Source: Desulfobacterales bacterium (lineage in GTDB: Bacteria > Desulfobacterota > Desulfobacteria > Desulfobacterales > UBA5852). From it: 12,236 nt of DNA. Positions 4,018-12,013 of this stretch are shown in pieces. A program made the position numbers and the translations under genes. The notes beneath the pieces were generated by a model. That model was given only the letters and a program-made list of their open reading frames with translations. It was not told the origin of the DNA and did no database searches. The stretch is taken from positions 1 to 12,236 of the forward strand of contig JASJBQ010000149.1 in the NCBI GenBank assembly GCA_030066455.1, in the 5' to 3' direction. Within the stretch, counting starts at the first letter, position 1. Each line of letters begins with the position of its first letter.

Positions 4018-4839
4018 TCAGGCCGCGTTCTGTTGGTAGAGGTGCACGTCACGCTGCGGGAAGGGGATACTGACCCCGGCGGCATCAAAACGCTTCTTGA
4101 TGGTTTCGGTCACGTCGAAGTAGACGCCCCAGTAGTCGCCGGTGTTGACCCAGGGGCGCACGACGAAATTAACCGAACTGTCCGCCAGTTCGGATAAGGC
4201 AATTTGCGGCGGCGGGTTCTTCAAAATGCGCTCTTCAGCCGCCAGGACTTCTTGCATAATGGCTTTGGCCTTGTCGATGTCGTCTTCGTAGCCGATACCG
4301 AAGACCATGTCCACGCGCCGGGTGCCGGTGGCCGACCAGTTGACGATGTTGTCGTCGGTGAGCTTGGCATTGGGGATGATAATGATTTTGTTGTCCGGCG
4401 TTTTGAGCTGGGTGGTGAATATCTGGATATTTTCAACTGTGCCGGCCACTCCGGCGCCCTCGATATAGTCACCGACCCGAAAGGGGCGGAAGAAGATCAG
4501 CATGAATCCGGCGGCAAAATTGGCCAGCGAACCTTGCAGCGCCAGCCCCACAGCCAGACCGGCAGCACCGATGACGGCGATAAACGATGTGGTCTGGATG
4601 CCCAGCTGGCTGAGGGCGGCCAGGACAACAAAGGTGAACAGCGCATAATAGGTCAGGCTGCCGACAAAACCCGTCAAGGTCGGGTCGACATCACGCTTTT
4701 CCATCAGGCGCTGGACCAGCCGACCGAAAAAGCGCGCAATCCAGCGCCCGATAATCAGAATGACCAGGGCCGTCAGAATGCGTACACCGTAGAAAGCGAG
4801 CAGTTCCCCACCCTTGTTGATCAGAGCTTCCCAGTTCAT
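4018..4839 (-). CDS. mscS: Small-conductance mechanosensitive channel MscS
   Basis: A 273-residue protein close in length to E. coli MscS (286). The ATG at 4839 follows GGGAGGG with a 5-base gap; longer in-frame starts lack this. Three membrane helices lie at about residues 20-40, 62-80 and 86-118. The pore helix carries the MscS signature GLAVGLALQGSLANFAAG, with pore-constriction leucines at about Leu95 and Leu99 and the hinge Gly103. The cytoplasmic beta domain contains FRPFRVGDYIEGAGVAGTV and IPNAKL, and the C-terminal domain contains NFVVRPWVNTGDYW and PFPQRDV. The homoheptamer in the inner membrane opens under high tension to release solutes in hypo-osmotic shock. It appears to be a single-gene unit. 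Confidence 0.95.
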   Translation of the reverse strand: MNWEALINKGGELLAFYGVRILTALVILIIGRWIARFFGRLVQRLMEKRDVDPTLTGFVGSLTYYALFTFVVLAALSQLGIQTTSFIAVIGAAGLAVGLALQGSLANFAAGFMLIFFRPFRVGDYIEGAGVAGTVENIQIFTTQLKTPDNKIIIIPNAKLTDDNIVNWSATGTRRVDMVFGIGYEDDIDKAKAIMQEVLAAEERILKNPPPQIALSELADSSVNFVVRPWVNTGDYWGVYFDVTETIKKRFDAAGVSIPFPQRDVHLYQQNAA

Positions 4840-7154: not shown

Positions 7155-8054
7155 TTACCGTCCGACGTGTCGGCTGATACGGTCGATGACAATATCCCAC
7201 AGCGATGCCGGGATAGCGTGCCCCATCCCCTCGATAATTTCGAGCCCGGCGCCCGGGATGGCATCGGCGGTGGCATGGCCGTGCGCGACGGGAAGAAGCG
7301 GGTCCTTGTCGCCGTGCAGCACCAGAACGGGCCGGTTGACCTTCTGCAGCCGTAGCGTGCGGTCGCCCGAAGCCATGATGGCGGCCGTCTGCCGGACAAT
7401 GCCGTCCGGGTTCAGGCCGCGGTCGTAATGGGCCGCCGCCCACCGGTGGGTCATGGCGTCGTCGACCGGATGGATCGGCCCGCTCAGCACCCGGTAGGCC
7501 GCCATGAACGCCTCGATATAGCCCTCCCGGTCCGAGGGAAACGGATTGATCAGGACCGCCAGTGCCTCGGGCGTCGGGGGCGGAAGATCGGGAGCGCCCG
7601 TGGTGGACATGATCGAGGTCAAGGTCAGAAGCCGTTCGGGCCATTGGACCGCAAGCTCCTGGCCGATCATGGCCCCCATGGAGATGCCCGCCAGATGCGC
7701 CCGTTCGATTCCGAGCGCGTCCATCAGGCCGACCGTATCACCGGCCATGTCGATCAGGTTGTAGGGGGCGTCTACGGCCTGGCCACTAAACTGCGCCTGC
7801 ATAAGGGCATCCAGATCCGGCCGGCCGCCCTGGTCCCAGTGGCCGCTGAGACCGATATCGCGGTTGTCGAAGCGGATCACGCACAGCCCGCGCCGGGCCA
7901 GCTGGTCGCAGAAAGCGTCGTCCCAGGCCACCATCTGAGTCCCCAGCCCCATGACCAGCAGAAGGGCCGGGTGTTCCGGGCGGCCGAATCGCTGATAGGC
8001 GATGCGAAGCTTTCCGGTCTGAGCATATTCGGTCATGTCGAGCGTCATGGTCAT
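7155..8054 (-). CDS. Alpha/beta hydrolase (RdmC-like esterase family)
   Basis: A 299-residue cytoplasmic protein with no signal peptide. The alpha/beta-hydrolase order is clear: oxyanion region VMGLGTQM (34-41), DNRDIGLS (63-70), nucleophile elbow GISMG with Ser125, acid Asp251 in HGDKDPLLP, and His279 in GMGHAIP. The DNRDxGxS motif is typical of the aclacinomycin methylesterase-like group, so a carboxyl-ester or lactone substrate is likely but not identifiable. The start is uncertain: ATGs at 8054, 8048 and 8036 are all possible and none has a good ribosome-binding site. The in-frame sequence upstream has no other start before a stop. It is the first gene of the leftward unit and diverges from the kinase operon. 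Confidence 0.9.
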
Positions 8055-8104
8055 CGGTAATCGGATCTGTCGGCGGGTTGAAATCCTTTACGAAGTGAAT
8101 GGCC

Positions 8105-8134
8105 ACCATAGCATAGACCTCCCGAAACCGGCAA
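8105..8134 (-). promoter_or_regulatory. Weak candidate promoter for the hydrolase operon
   Basis: On the minus strand TTGCCG (8134-8129) and TATGGT (8110-8105), each four of six to consensus, are 18 bases apart. Their position fits a promoter for the gene starting at 8054. The -35 lies inside a short CCGGC-AAG-GCCGG dyad (8128-8140). The match is modest. Confidence 0.3.
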
Positions 8135-8163
8135 GGCCGGGCGGGAGAGCCGCCAGTTTTCTT

Positions 8164-8192
8164 TTGACATCATGGTGTTTTTGCCCTATGCA
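8164..8192 (+). promoter_or_regulatory. Sigma-70-type promoter of the riboswitch-kinase operon
   Basis: A perfect -35 box TTGACA (8164-8169) is followed after exactly 17 bases by TATGCA (8187-8192), a partial -10. Transcription would begin near 8199, just ahead of the riboswitch aptamer, leaving a leader of about 168 bases before the kinase ATG. Confidence 0.6.
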
Positions 8193-8213
8193 ATTTAAAT
8201 AAGCTGCTAGACA

Positions 8214-8298
8214 GCGATACTTGAAAGGCCAAACCTGTCGCGAGGCAGGGACGGAAAGCCACGGGTCTTAAAAAGACAGCCGGGCTGCCGATGATCGC
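8214..8298 (+). ncRNA. GEMM-I cyclic dinucleotide riboswitch aptamer
   Basis: The leader shows the GEMM-I (c-di-GMP-I) pattern in order. The outer stem P1 is GCGAT (8214-8218) with ATCGC (8294-8298). CCAAACC (8229-8235) is followed by a hairpin CCTGTC-GCGA-GGCAGG (8234-8249) capped by a GNRA tetraloop. Then come the conserved GGGACGGAAAGCC (8248-8260) and ACGGGTCT, a second stem GTCT/AGAC (8265-8276), and AGCCGGGCTGCCGATG (8277-8293). This parallels the Vibrio Vc2 aptamer element by element. Two positions differ from the common consensus: an extra or changed C in GGCCAAACC, and G for C in GACGGAAAG. The ligand is c-di-GMP in most members and cyclic AMP-GMP in some Geobacter relatives; I cannot decide between them by eye. 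Confidence 0.88.
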
Positions 8299-8304
8299 AG
8301 AACA

Positions 8305-8340
8305 CCGAATCGCATCGGACAGCCGGTCGATTCGGTTTTT
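8305..8340 (+). terminator. Riboswitch-controlled intrinsic terminator
   Basis: CCGAATCG (8305-8312) and CGATTCGG (8328-8335) form a perfect 8-bp stem with a 15-base loop, directly followed by TTTTT (8336-8340). It lies between the GEMM-I aptamer and the kinase start, as expected of a transcriptional expression platform. Two alternative pairings can compete: aptamer CCGATG (8288-8293) with loop CATCGG (8313-8318), and the 5' P1 strand GCGAT (8214-8218) with ATCGC (8309-8313). Confidence 0.8.
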
Positions 8341-8366
8341 CGTTGGGGCCGCCAAGCCAACGAGAA

Positions 8367-10907
8367 ATGAAACGCTACCTCTTTTCTACCAGCATCGTCA
8401 TCACCCTGATCGCCCTACTGCTGCTGCTCGGCAGCTATTTGGAACTGCGGCCGCTGTACACACTGGAGGCTCTGACCTTCGACCGCCTATCGGCGCTGCG
8501 CTCCCCCCCGCCGAACGATAAGGTCGTCCTGGTGGCCGTCGACGAGGCCAGCATCCGTCAGATCGGTCCATGGCCCTGGCCGCGAAGCGTGATCGCCCGC
8601 GGCATCGAGCGTCTCTCCCGAAGCGGTGCGGCGGGCGTCGGCCTAACCCTGCTGTACCCCGATCGCGCGCTCAACCCGGCCCTGGAGGAAATCGACGCGC
8701 TGCGATCCGATCTGGGCCCGGTACGCACCAAATCACAGAAGCAGCTGGCCGCACGGATCCGATCGAAACTCCAGACCACCCGTCACCGCCTGGACCAGGA
8801 CCGCCAGCTCATCAATGCGGTTCGCGGGGCCAAAAATGCTGTCCTGCCCTATCGCATCATTTGGGGGCCGCCGGACAGCGGGGAACCGCCGCCGCTGTCC
8901 GGCCTGTTGACCGTCAACTCCCGACGTGTGGAGGGCGCGAAGGCCGGGACGCCGGATCCGTTGTCCGCGCTGCACCGGGCCGCCGCCCCGCTGCGCGCGC
9001 CCCGGCGGGCGCCGATCGATTTTCAGGAGACATTTCGCGATCTGGCCGGGAAAGCCGGCGCCCTGGGTTTTATCGACATCCGCCCGGATCGGGACGGCAC
9101 CGTCCGTCGCCTGCCCCTGCTGACGACCTATCGTAATCGCGATCTGGCGTCCCTGGCGCTGCAGTTGGCTCTCAAGACACAGGGTTCAAGCATCCGAAAA
9201 CTGTCCCTGGAGGACGGCGATGGGTCGACCAGCGCTATAAATATCGGTGACACCGTCGTTCCCGCGGGCACCGACCGCGCCCTGTTGATCGACTATTCCC
9301 GCGACGGGCAGCCGGTTCCGAAGCTTGCCTTCGCCGCCCTCCTGGATGAAGCGGCCGACCTGGCGCTGGTCAAAGACAAGGTCGCCGTTATCGGGGTGAC
9401 CGAAGGAACCAGCACGCGGGTTTACCCCATCCCCGGCGGTCGGACGGCTACCGTCCCCGAAATCAGCGCCGCCGGATTGGCCACGCTCCTGAGCGGGCGC
9501 TTCCTGCAGCGGCCTTCGTGGGCCTTGATGGTGGAGGGCGCCGCCCTGCTCTACTTCCTCTTTTTTCTGCTGATTGTTATTCCCCGGGTCCGGCTGAGGA
9601 TTGGCGGACTGATTCTGCTCGTCTTTCTGTTCACCTGGTGGGGTGCGGCCGGTGTGGGCCTGGTGCATTTCGGCTATTGGCTCTGGTTTCTTCCGCCCCT
9701 TATCCTGTGCCTGGTGGGGTTCAGCCTGACGGCCGCCCGGCAGATCGCCCGACGTCTGCAAAGCGAAAATCTCGAGTTGAACCGCTCGCTGGGGCTCTCC
9801 TTCCAGACCCAGGGGATGCTGGACATGGCCCTGGACAAATTCCTCAAATGCCCGGTGGCAGACAAAACCGTGCGAGACCTTCTCTACAATCTGGCGCTTG
9901 ATTTCGAACGCAAACGCATGGGGGACAAGGCGCTTGCGGTTTACGAGCACATCCTCAAGGCGGGCCGCTTCAAAGACGTCAAAAAACGTATCAAAAAGCT
10001 GCGCGAATACGAGAAGGCCGCCTTGCTGCCCGAAGGATCCAACGGGGCCGGAGCGACCCTGCGCCTGACGAACACCGACACCCTGCCCACCTTCGGGCGC
10101 TACGAGATCATGAAGGAACTTGGGCAGGGCGCCATGGGGACCGTGTACCTGGGTCGGGATCCCAAGATCAACCGCCAGGTGGCCATCAAGACCCTGCAAT
10201 ACGGCAGCGTGCCGGCCGAAGAGCTCGCCGAGGTCAAGGCACGTTTTTTTCGTGAGGCCGAGGCCGCCGGCAAGCTTTCCCACCCCAACATCGTCACGGT
10301 ATACGATATCGGCGAGGAGCACGACATCGCCTACATGGCCATGGAGCTGCTGGAAGGAACGGAGCTGACGCCTTTCTGCCGACCGGGCCAACTCCTGCCG
10401 GTGGACGAGGTCATCGACATCATGGCCGCAGTGGCCGGGGCGCTGGCCTATGCCCACCAGCAGGGCGTCGTGCACCGCGACATCAAGCCGGCCAACATCA
10501 TGCGGCTGCAAAACGGTTCGATCCGGGTCACGGATTTCGGCATTGCCCGCGTGATGGACAAGACCAAAACGAAAACCGGCATCGTCATGGGCACCCCGTC
10601 CTACATGTCACCCGAGCAGGTGGTCGGCAAGAAGGTGGACGGCCGCTCCGATCTCTTCTCCCTGGGCATCGTCTTCTACGAGATGCTCACCGGCCAGAAG
10701 CCGTTCGAGGGAGAGACCATTGCGGCCCTGATGTACGCCATCTCCAAATCACCCTTCAAACCCCTGGTCGAGGTGGTGCCGGATCTGCCGCCCAGCTGCG
10801 TCGAGATTGTGGGCAAACTCCTCAACAAGGGCGTATCGCGACGCTACAAATCGGCCGACCAGGCCCTGGAGGCCATTCGCGCGTGTCGGGGCGATGCGCC
10901 CCAATAA
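8367..10907 (+). CDS. CHASE2-domain transmembrane Ser/Thr protein kinase
   Basis: An 846-residue protein. I chose the ATG at 8367 because it directly opens the first membrane helix (residues 8-27); a TTG 24 bases upstream is less likely. Both have poor ribosome-binding sites. Residues 28-385 are an extracytoplasmic CHASE2 sensor (LTFDRLSALR, VVLVAVDEASI, GPWPWPR, GFIDIRPDRDGTVRRLPL). About three helices follow at 388-406, 411-429 and 435-455. Residues 465-550 are a helical, TPR-like linker. Residues 579-840 are a PknB-type kinase: glycine loop GQGAMG (586-591), Lys608, Glu630, HRDIKPAN (703-710), DFG (723-725), GTPSYMSPE (742-750). All catalytic residues are present, so it should be active. 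It would sense a periplasmic signal and phosphorylate Ser/Thr in the cytoplasm. It is expressed behind the GEMM-I riboswitch. Confidence 0.95.
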   Translation: MKRYLFSTSIVITLIALLLLLGSYLELRPLYTLEALTFDRLSALRSPPPNDKVVLVAVDEASIRQIGPWPWPRSVIARGIERLSRSGAAGVGLTLLYPDRALNPALEEIDALRSDLGPVRTKSQKQLAARIRSKLQTTRHRLDQDRQLINAVRGAKNAVLPYRIIWGPPDSGEPPPLSGLLTVNSRRVEGAKAGTPDPLSALHRAAAPLRAPRRAPIDFQETFRDLAGKAGALGFIDIRPDRDGTVRRLPLLTTYRNRDLASLALQLALKTQGSSIRKLSLEDGDGSTSAINIGDTVVPAGTDRALLIDYSRDGQPVPKLAFAALLDEAADLALVKDKVAVIGVTEGTSTRVYPIPGGRTATVPEISAAGLATLLSGRFLQRPSWALMVEGAALLYFLFFLLIVIPRVRLRIGGLILLVFLFTWWGAAGVGLVHFGYWLWFLPPLILCLVGFSLTAARQIARRLQSENLELNRSLGLSFQTQGMLDMALDKFLKCPVADKTVRDLLYNLALDFERKRMGDKALAVYEHILKAGRFKDVKKRIKKLREYEKAALLPEGSNGAGATLRLTNTDTLPTFGRYEIMKELGQGAMGTVYLGRDPKINRQVAIKTLQYGSVPAEELAEVKARFFREAEAAGKLSHPNIVTVYDIGEEHDIAYMAMELLEGTELTPFCRPGQLLPVDEVIDIMAAVAGALAYAHQQGVVHRDIKPANIMRLQNGSIRVTDFGIARVMDKTKTKTGIVMGTPSYMSPEQVVGKKVDGRSDLFSLGIVFYEMLTGQKPFEGETIAALMYAISKSPFKPLVEVVPDLPPSCVEIVGKLLNKGVSRRYKSADQALEAIRACRGDAPQ

Positions 10908-10987: not shown

Positions 10988-11320
10988 ATGCTGGAAATAA
11001 CGGTCGAACTCAAAAACACCATTCTCGACACCTACAAAATCGACAAGCCCGAGATCACCATCGGCCGCAACAAGAAGAACGACATCAGCATCGACAACCT
11101 GGCCGTCTCCGACCGGCACGCCCGCATCTATAAATCCAAGGGCGCGTATATCATGGAAGATCTCGACAGCACCAACGGTACCATCGTCAACGGCCGCAGG
11201 ATCAAGCAGATCACCCTGCGCGGCGGTCTGCAGGTAGAGATCGGCAAACATATCCTGCTCATTGAGATGAACGGGGCCGACAAGACCAGCCCGGCTTTCG
11301 ACCGCACGATGAAAATTTAG
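10988..11320 (+). CDS. FHA-domain protein
   Basis: A 110-residue protein that is essentially one forkhead-associated domain. The ATG at 10988 follows GGAGGG about nine bases away. The phosphothreonine-binding signature is complete: Gly26-Arg27, Ser41-x-x-His44, and Asn63-Gly64/Asn68-Gly69 in STNGTIVNGR. FHA domains bind phospho-Thr peptides, so this small protein most likely reads the output of the adjacent kinase, comparable in layout to PknB with GarA. The tail after the domain (residues 96-110) holds Thr100 and Thr107, possible self-docking phosphosites; this is inference. It probably shares the riboswitch-controlled transcript. Confidence 0.92.
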   Translation: MLEITVELKNTILDTYKIDKPEITIGRNKKNDISIDNLAVSDRHARIYKSKGAYIMEDLDSTNGTIVNGRRIKQITLRGGLQVEIGKHILLIEMNGADKTSPAFDRTMKI

Positions 11321-11470: not shown

Positions 11471-12013
11471 TTAGGCTTCGTGGCGCGTTCCGCCCTTGGG
11501 GCCGGATGGCAACGTAAAGCGCCACTGGCAGAACTGGTCTTCAGGGTGGGGATCGGGCGGTGCGAAGAGGCACTCCACCCGGATGGCGGGATCGATGACG
11601 GCAGCGAAACCCTCGAATTCACGACGGTGCATCTCTTTACAGTTGTACTCCCCCAGGCCGCGCTTGAGGCGGGCCACCTGGGTCGGGCAGGAAGGCACCC
11701 GCAGCGTGACGGCATCACCGGTCGCCTCGATCTGATACCCCACCAGGATGCTCCACGGAAAAAGCCGCAGGGCCTGAACGAACCCCTCAAGCCCCTTGGC
11801 CGTGATGTCGAAGCGTTTCACCAGGTCCCTGGCCGCCATGCCCGAAACGCGCCCCCAGACGTCGGCGTTGATGCTCTCGGCCGTGTCCTGCCCGAACTTC
11901 GCCGTCACTTCGATGAACCAGAAGGCGTCCACCACCCGGTAATGCCAGAGCAGAAAGGTGATGTACGCCCGCAGCTGAGCGCGGTCCATACGCTCGAAAC
12001 ATTCAAGATCCAT
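11471..12013 (-). CDS. DUF6125 family protein
   Basis: A 180-residue soluble protein. I recognise it from memory as DUF6125, which is common in sulfate-reducing bacteria. It resembles the L-2-amino-thiazoline-4-carboxylate hydrolase-like fold, but no activity is established here. Conserved-looking parts include [17 protein letters not shown] (16-32), [58 protein letters not shown] with two Cys, and [19 protein letters not shown]. Its ATG at 12013 lies inside the end of the upstream dehydrogenase gene (11-base overlap), so translation should be coupled and a role linked to that enzyme is plausible. Confidence 0.85.

Follow-up and report, generated by a model that had tools for sequence, protein, structure and literature searches.

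A predicted c-di-GMP-I riboswitch in front of a CHASE2 Ser/Thr kinase and FHA operon in a Desulfobacterales bacterium

Does an RNA switch place a Ser/Thr phosphorylation pathway under a cyclic dinucleotide? This question is raised by a locus in the window, i.e., the whole 12,236-nucleotide stretch of contig JASJBQ010000149.1 of a Desulfobacterales bacterium that was analysed here, in which a structured leader precedes the genes of a membrane Ser/Thr kinase and of a small FHA-domain protein. The initial annotation had described promoter, aptamer, terminator with a T5 tract and kinase ATG in that order, and sequence, Rfam and folding all agree with this layout. The features, all on the forward strand, are as follows:

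8164-8169 and 8187-8192 (+): promoter, -35 TTGACA, 17-base spacer, -10 TATGCA (sequence)
8214-8218 / 8294-8298 (+): P1 helix enclosing the aptamer, GCGAT with ATCGC (MFE fold)
8219-8293 (+): complete aptamer of the c-di-GMP-I class (Rfam covariance match to RF03167, c-di-GMP-I-GGC)
8228, 8255, 8288 (+): pocket bases G, A and C (aptamer alignment)
8234-8249 (+): P2 with a GCGA tetraloop of the GNRA type (aptamer alignment)
about 8257-8285 (+): P3 (aptamer alignment)
8283-8293 with 8313-8318 and 8320-8324 (+): predicted antiterminator (MFE of growing transcripts)
8304-8312/8328-8336, 8314-8318/8323-8327 and 8336-8340 (+): intrinsic terminator, 9-bp stem, inner 5-bp stem and T5 (sequence, MFE fold)
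8337-8366 (+): second hairpin of 10 pairs (8337-8346 with 8357-8366) that overlaps the T tract and ends at the ATG (MFE fold)
8367-10907 (+): CHASE2, membrane and Ser/Thr kinase protein, 846 aa (Pfam CHASE2 E 9.6e-42, Pkinase E 3.2e-57)
10988-11320 (+): small FHA-domain protein, 110 aa (Pfam FHA E 1.8e-18)

The aptamer and the operon behind it

The aptamer is the sole strong RNA match in a cmscan of the whole window, in which RF03167 scores 72.5 bits (cut-off 59, E 6e-16). When the segment 8150-8400 is scanned alone, RF03167 again exceeds its curated cut-off, which places the leader in clan CL00126 by score, and one lower-scoring family of the clan, unnamed by the tool, also exceeds its own. 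The leader had been proposed as a match to RF01051; the above-threshold assignment to the clan stands, and the best model is RF03167 instead. A match of the L31-leader family at 2713-2750 was rejected at 28.2 bits, below its cut-off of 36. A simple sigma-70 scan of 7900-8600 reports no promoter, and it misses TTGACA-17-TATGCA because it demands a T at the last -10 position.

The leader (8198-8380) has a more stable fold than all 200 of its shuffled versions (z -3.2). The aptamer fold was further followed through 32 aligned sequences, comprising the window, five kinase leaders and 26 of 36 other aptamer loci (of the other ten, four are truncated at contig ends, two are weak and four were left out without a stated reason). 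In this alignment 98.0% of cells are paired and 15 of 19 pairs have changed on both sides, and P2 with its GNRA loop and P3 are kept by covariation, as in the c-di-GMP-I clan. None of 500 shuffles scores as high on four of five measures and three do on the fifth, in a test that leans towards the aptamer fold because its 32 rows were found with models of the same fold.

The operon itself begins at the kinase ATG (8367), and the kinase sequence contains HRDIKPAN and DFG. The FHA protein carries a signature (GR, S, H, NG) that is invariant among six aligned sequences. Gene order and a gap of 80 bases suggest that the two genes are cotranscribed, and their domains point to a signalling relay in which the FHA protein would be the phospho-Thr reader: the kinase would sense something via CHASE2 and phosphorylate threonines, which the FHA protein would then read. 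Among homologues from a named organism the closest is a partial protein of Desulfosarcina sp. (P0015; 76% identity over 71% of the query). CHASE2 joined to a kinase domain is also found in the Ser/Thr kinases of a cyanobacterial survey, from which, as far as the available text of that survey goes, the window differs by its leader riboswitch and its separate adjoining FHA gene (PMC2176072). The FHA protein also has an invariant Thr near both ends (T12 and T108, alignment numbering), and these are possible phosphorylation sites. After the operon lies a DUF6125 gene on the reverse strand (11471-12013), as in L213, L214, L215, L216 and L217.

The arrangement recurs in close kinase orthologues from the order of G168, presumably Desulfobacterales, which are 88% (L183), 80% (L184), 57% (L185) and 54% (L186) identical to the window kinase. 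RF03167 is above its cut-off in the leaders of all four, i.e., in every close orthologue with a readable leader, and promoter block, aptamer and T-tailed terminator stem align through them; the -35 is TTGACT in L183 and TTGACA in the others, and the -10 varies. An FHA gene follows the kinase in each of the four and lies beside it in the more distant L201. No usable leader is present at L187, L194 (74 bases) and L215, a second copy in G756 with 78% kinase identity and only 64 bases of leader. A comparison of orthologous leaders had been set beforehand as a test of the claim that a GEMM-I class riboswitch precedes the kinase-FHA operon. The claim has come through it, with aptamer, terminator stem, kinase and FHA gene in 4/4 close orthologues. 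Most of the more distant kinases have no detected aptamer. In L185 (1306-1319) and L186 (4209-4222, reverse strand) an extra small hairpin, CTCCG/CGGAG, lies between aptamer P1 and P2.

The pocket and its ligand

We take 8228 G, 8255 A and 8288 C to be G20, A47 and C92 in Vc2 numbering. With this numbering the three pocket bases of the clan are present in the window and in 32/32 aligned aptamers; the 21-46 pair is C-G in the window, and among the 32 rows it is C-G in 20 and G-C in 12. GEMM-Ib, which binds cGAMP, has an A at position 20, whereas 8228 is a G, and the ligand is therefore probably c-di-GMP and not cGAMP. An A20G change converts a cGAMP riboswitch to c-di-GMP, according to the available part of PMC6456294.

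The Rfam family label needs a separate reading. The printed consensus of RF03167 has a G at the A47 place, and 'GGC' in the family name presumably refers to a pocket variant with that G. The window scores as RF03167 yet has an A there, as have all 32 rows, so that RF03167 denotes here the model with the best score, without implying a pocket variant; the mismatch between consensus G and observed A was counted against the best explanation. An A, not a G, also occupies this place in all 23 aligned matches from a phylum-wide RF03167 search, and the family name may be misleading in the phylum of G004.

Terminator, antiterminator and the direction of the switch

The terminator has a perfect 8-bp stem, CCGAATCG (8305-8312) with CGATTCGG (8328-8335), followed by T5 (8336-8340). 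Growing transcripts were folded without ligand at sampled 3' ends. A 6-bp core of the antiterminator is already in the MFE at 8320; at 8323 the aptamer with P1 is best and the antiterminator is not the MFE, which counts against the best explanation. The antiterminator is the MFE at 8324, 8328, 8329 and 8332, lying below a forced aptamer core by 0.5, 1.8 and 3.0 kcal/mol at 8324, 8328 and 8332, respectively (-45.2 versus -42.2 kcal/mol at the last). From 8336 onwards the P1, P2 and P3 stems together with the terminator are best at -52.7 kcal/mol, compared with -51.3 when the pocket core pairs are forced and -47.4 when the antiterminator is. Since the terminator state is the stabler one at full length without ligand (-52.7 versus -47.4), read-through would have to be kinetic.

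An antiterminator that is the MFE shortly before a terminator able to coexist with the aptamer leads to the prediction of an OFF switch like Cd1 of Clostridioides difficile. The two-gene CHASE2 Ser/Thr kinase and FHA operon is thus probably controlled by a transcriptional c-di-GMP-I riboswitch of this type, a reading drawn from sequence, folding models and analogy. At low c-di-GMP the 3' strands of the aptamer would pair with a strand inside the terminator, allowing read-through; bound c-di-GMP would hold the aptamer, the terminator would form, and the kinase and FHA genes would be turned down. Cd1 likewise has a terminator separate from its aptamer and an antiterminator that uses an aptamer strand, as given in the available text of PMC9262584. 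It differs in that it controls flagellar genes and that earlier work cited there describes it as lacking P1, which is predicted in the window (PMC9262584, in part).

Support for this layout among the relatives is partial, and folding reproduces it fully (terminator without aptamer strands, antiterminator using one) in the window only. The antiterminator duplex is matched by 50 of 2000 shuffles, i.e., moderately beyond chance, and this was counted against the best explanation. Its strands are identical in L183 and L184 and therefore give it no covariation support. L183 has the antiterminator two bases into the 3' arm and the terminator at five (MFE). L184 has the antiterminator at both two and five bases, and its full-length MFE retains it and does not form the terminator; L185 forms a different alternative pairing and the MFE of L186 retains the aptamer, all three counting against the best explanation.

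A rival reading is an ON switch with the same RNA and ligand, in which ligand binding would permit transcription. GEMM-I ON switches do exist, pilM being one in the available text of PMC9262584, and the MFE terminator of L202, a doubtful relative, includes an aptamer-like 3' strand. We nevertheless consider this direction unlikely, as in the window, L183, L185 and L186 no aptamer strand is taken up by the folded terminator; L184, whose MFE lacks the terminator, still keeps the stem sequence. The pilM GEMM-Ib riboswitch of Geobacter (ON, cGAMP) shares the overall platform of aptamer and terminator with the window, which differs by its G, not A, at position 20 and by a terminator without an aptamer strand.

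That the ligand is cGAMP or some other dinucleotide is less probable again. GEMM-Ib riboswitches look alike and the best Rfam model is that of a variant family, but the pocket is G, A and C and position 20 is not the GEMM-Ib A. Least credible of all is that the aptamer has decayed or is a passenger and leaves the kinase genes unaffected: most of the more distant kinases have no detectable aptamer, but over 54-88% protein identity the aptamer stays above cut-off in 4/4 leaders, together with promoter block and terminator stem. The preferred reading remains the c-di-GMP OFF switch. As a side observation, CGTTGG/CCAACG of the hairpin at 8337-8366 is kept in L183 and L184, and in read-through mRNA this hairpin may affect translation.

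Targets of the aptamer and its spread among kinases

The window resembles known c-di-GMP-I (GEMM-I) riboswitches (RF01051/RF03167) in its whole aptamer, GNRA tetraloop P2, P3, pocket bases and leader position, and is unlike them in its 21-46 pair (C-G) and in its target, a Ser/Thr kinase-FHA operon. Of 395 genomes in the phylum of G004, 176 contain an RF03167 match, which is above cut-off in 114. A CHASE2-kinase profile matched no same-strand ORF in 76 other aptamer loci, which makes the target unusual; 70 of these loci come from the phylum-wide RF03167 search (30 loci and 40 places among the best matches listed) and six from another search (three from an Elusimicrobiota record and three below cut-off), and several are truncated at contig ends, with one only 254 bases long. 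By the rule used 12 of the 76 gave no ORF, and the Pfam count covers the 64 first downstream ORFs: the 25 of 67 families listed include fn3 (7), Ig-like, cytochromes, peptidases, GGDEF and HD. Where a target can be recognised among the families listed, it is in the sampled phylum loci mostly a surface protein, cytochrome, peptidase or c-di-GMP enzyme, unlike the signalling kinase and likely reader found here. By title or abstract, none of the open-access papers among the matches listed concerns a Ser/Thr kinase-FHA operon preceded by a c-di-GMP riboswitch. A regulatory target is not in itself new, since the available text of PMC11124144 describes a c-di-GMP-I riboswitch ahead of norR, a regulator gene, in a different sulfate reducer. 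The riboswitch class is known, and its use before a kinase-FHA operon appears real but unusual. If the proposed control is true, a Desulfosarcina-like bacterium would have a Ser/Thr phosphorylation pathway subordinate to c-di-GMP, and the leader would offer a handle on a CHASE2 kinase.

Kinase searches round other loci returned proteins of about 36-55% identity, those at 53-55% being partial matches; one other search centre yielded no kinase. At the Rfam cut-off, c-di-GMP-I aptamers were found in 0/20, 0/20, 5/20 and 0/20 members of four kinase-locus sets. L201 (46% kinase identity) has a clear aptamer (RF01051, 77.3 bits). A custom model derived from the 32 aligned aptamers, and so bound to match the five kinase leaders among them, was searched against 92 and 60 sources, at least two of which (L187, L194) have little or no leader. 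Beyond those five it recovers L092 (42.2 bits) and, doubtfully, L202 (17.2 bits), both just upstream of a kinase; other matches reach at most 11.4 bits in the 92 sources and none exceeds 12.7 in the 60. The divergent L092 aptamer scores 36.2 bits with RF03167, under the cut-off (E 4e-5). Most of the more distant kinases have no detected aptamer, which was counted against the best explanation and makes the kinase-leader aptamer a lineage feature, not a general one.

A tree of 86 kinases, built by a quick method with SH-aLRT support only and carrying warnings on long branches and on composition (the window clade among the latter), joins the window and L183-L186 in one clade (SH-aLRT 99). With the doubtful L202 counted, the aptamer label needs four changes on this tree and 0/500 shuffles need as few; the tree does not separate repeated gain from one gain with many losses. 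An FHA gene lies directly downstream on the same strand in 17 of 83 loci with data (two more have none), all 17 within L183-L212. We tentatively suggest that CHASE2 Ser/Thr kinases may have acquired c-di-GMP-I riboswitches on three or more occasions, in the window clade, L201 and L092. The c-di-GMP level would then set how much of a phospho-threonine signalling module is made, and RNA would connect the second messenger directly to Ser/Thr phosphorylation, perhaps with opposite sign from one lineage to another.

By eye the L092 terminator had seemed of the ON type; this was rejected, its MFE terminator containing no aptamer strand, and no direction is claimed. The L092 aptamer (4103-4262, reverse strand) has long insertions in P2 and in the loop of P3, and the kinase that follows it is about 40% identical. 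At L202 (4077-4158, reverse strand) the aptamer-like sequence is degenerate, and its 3' strand contributes to a strong terminator predicted ahead of a kinase.
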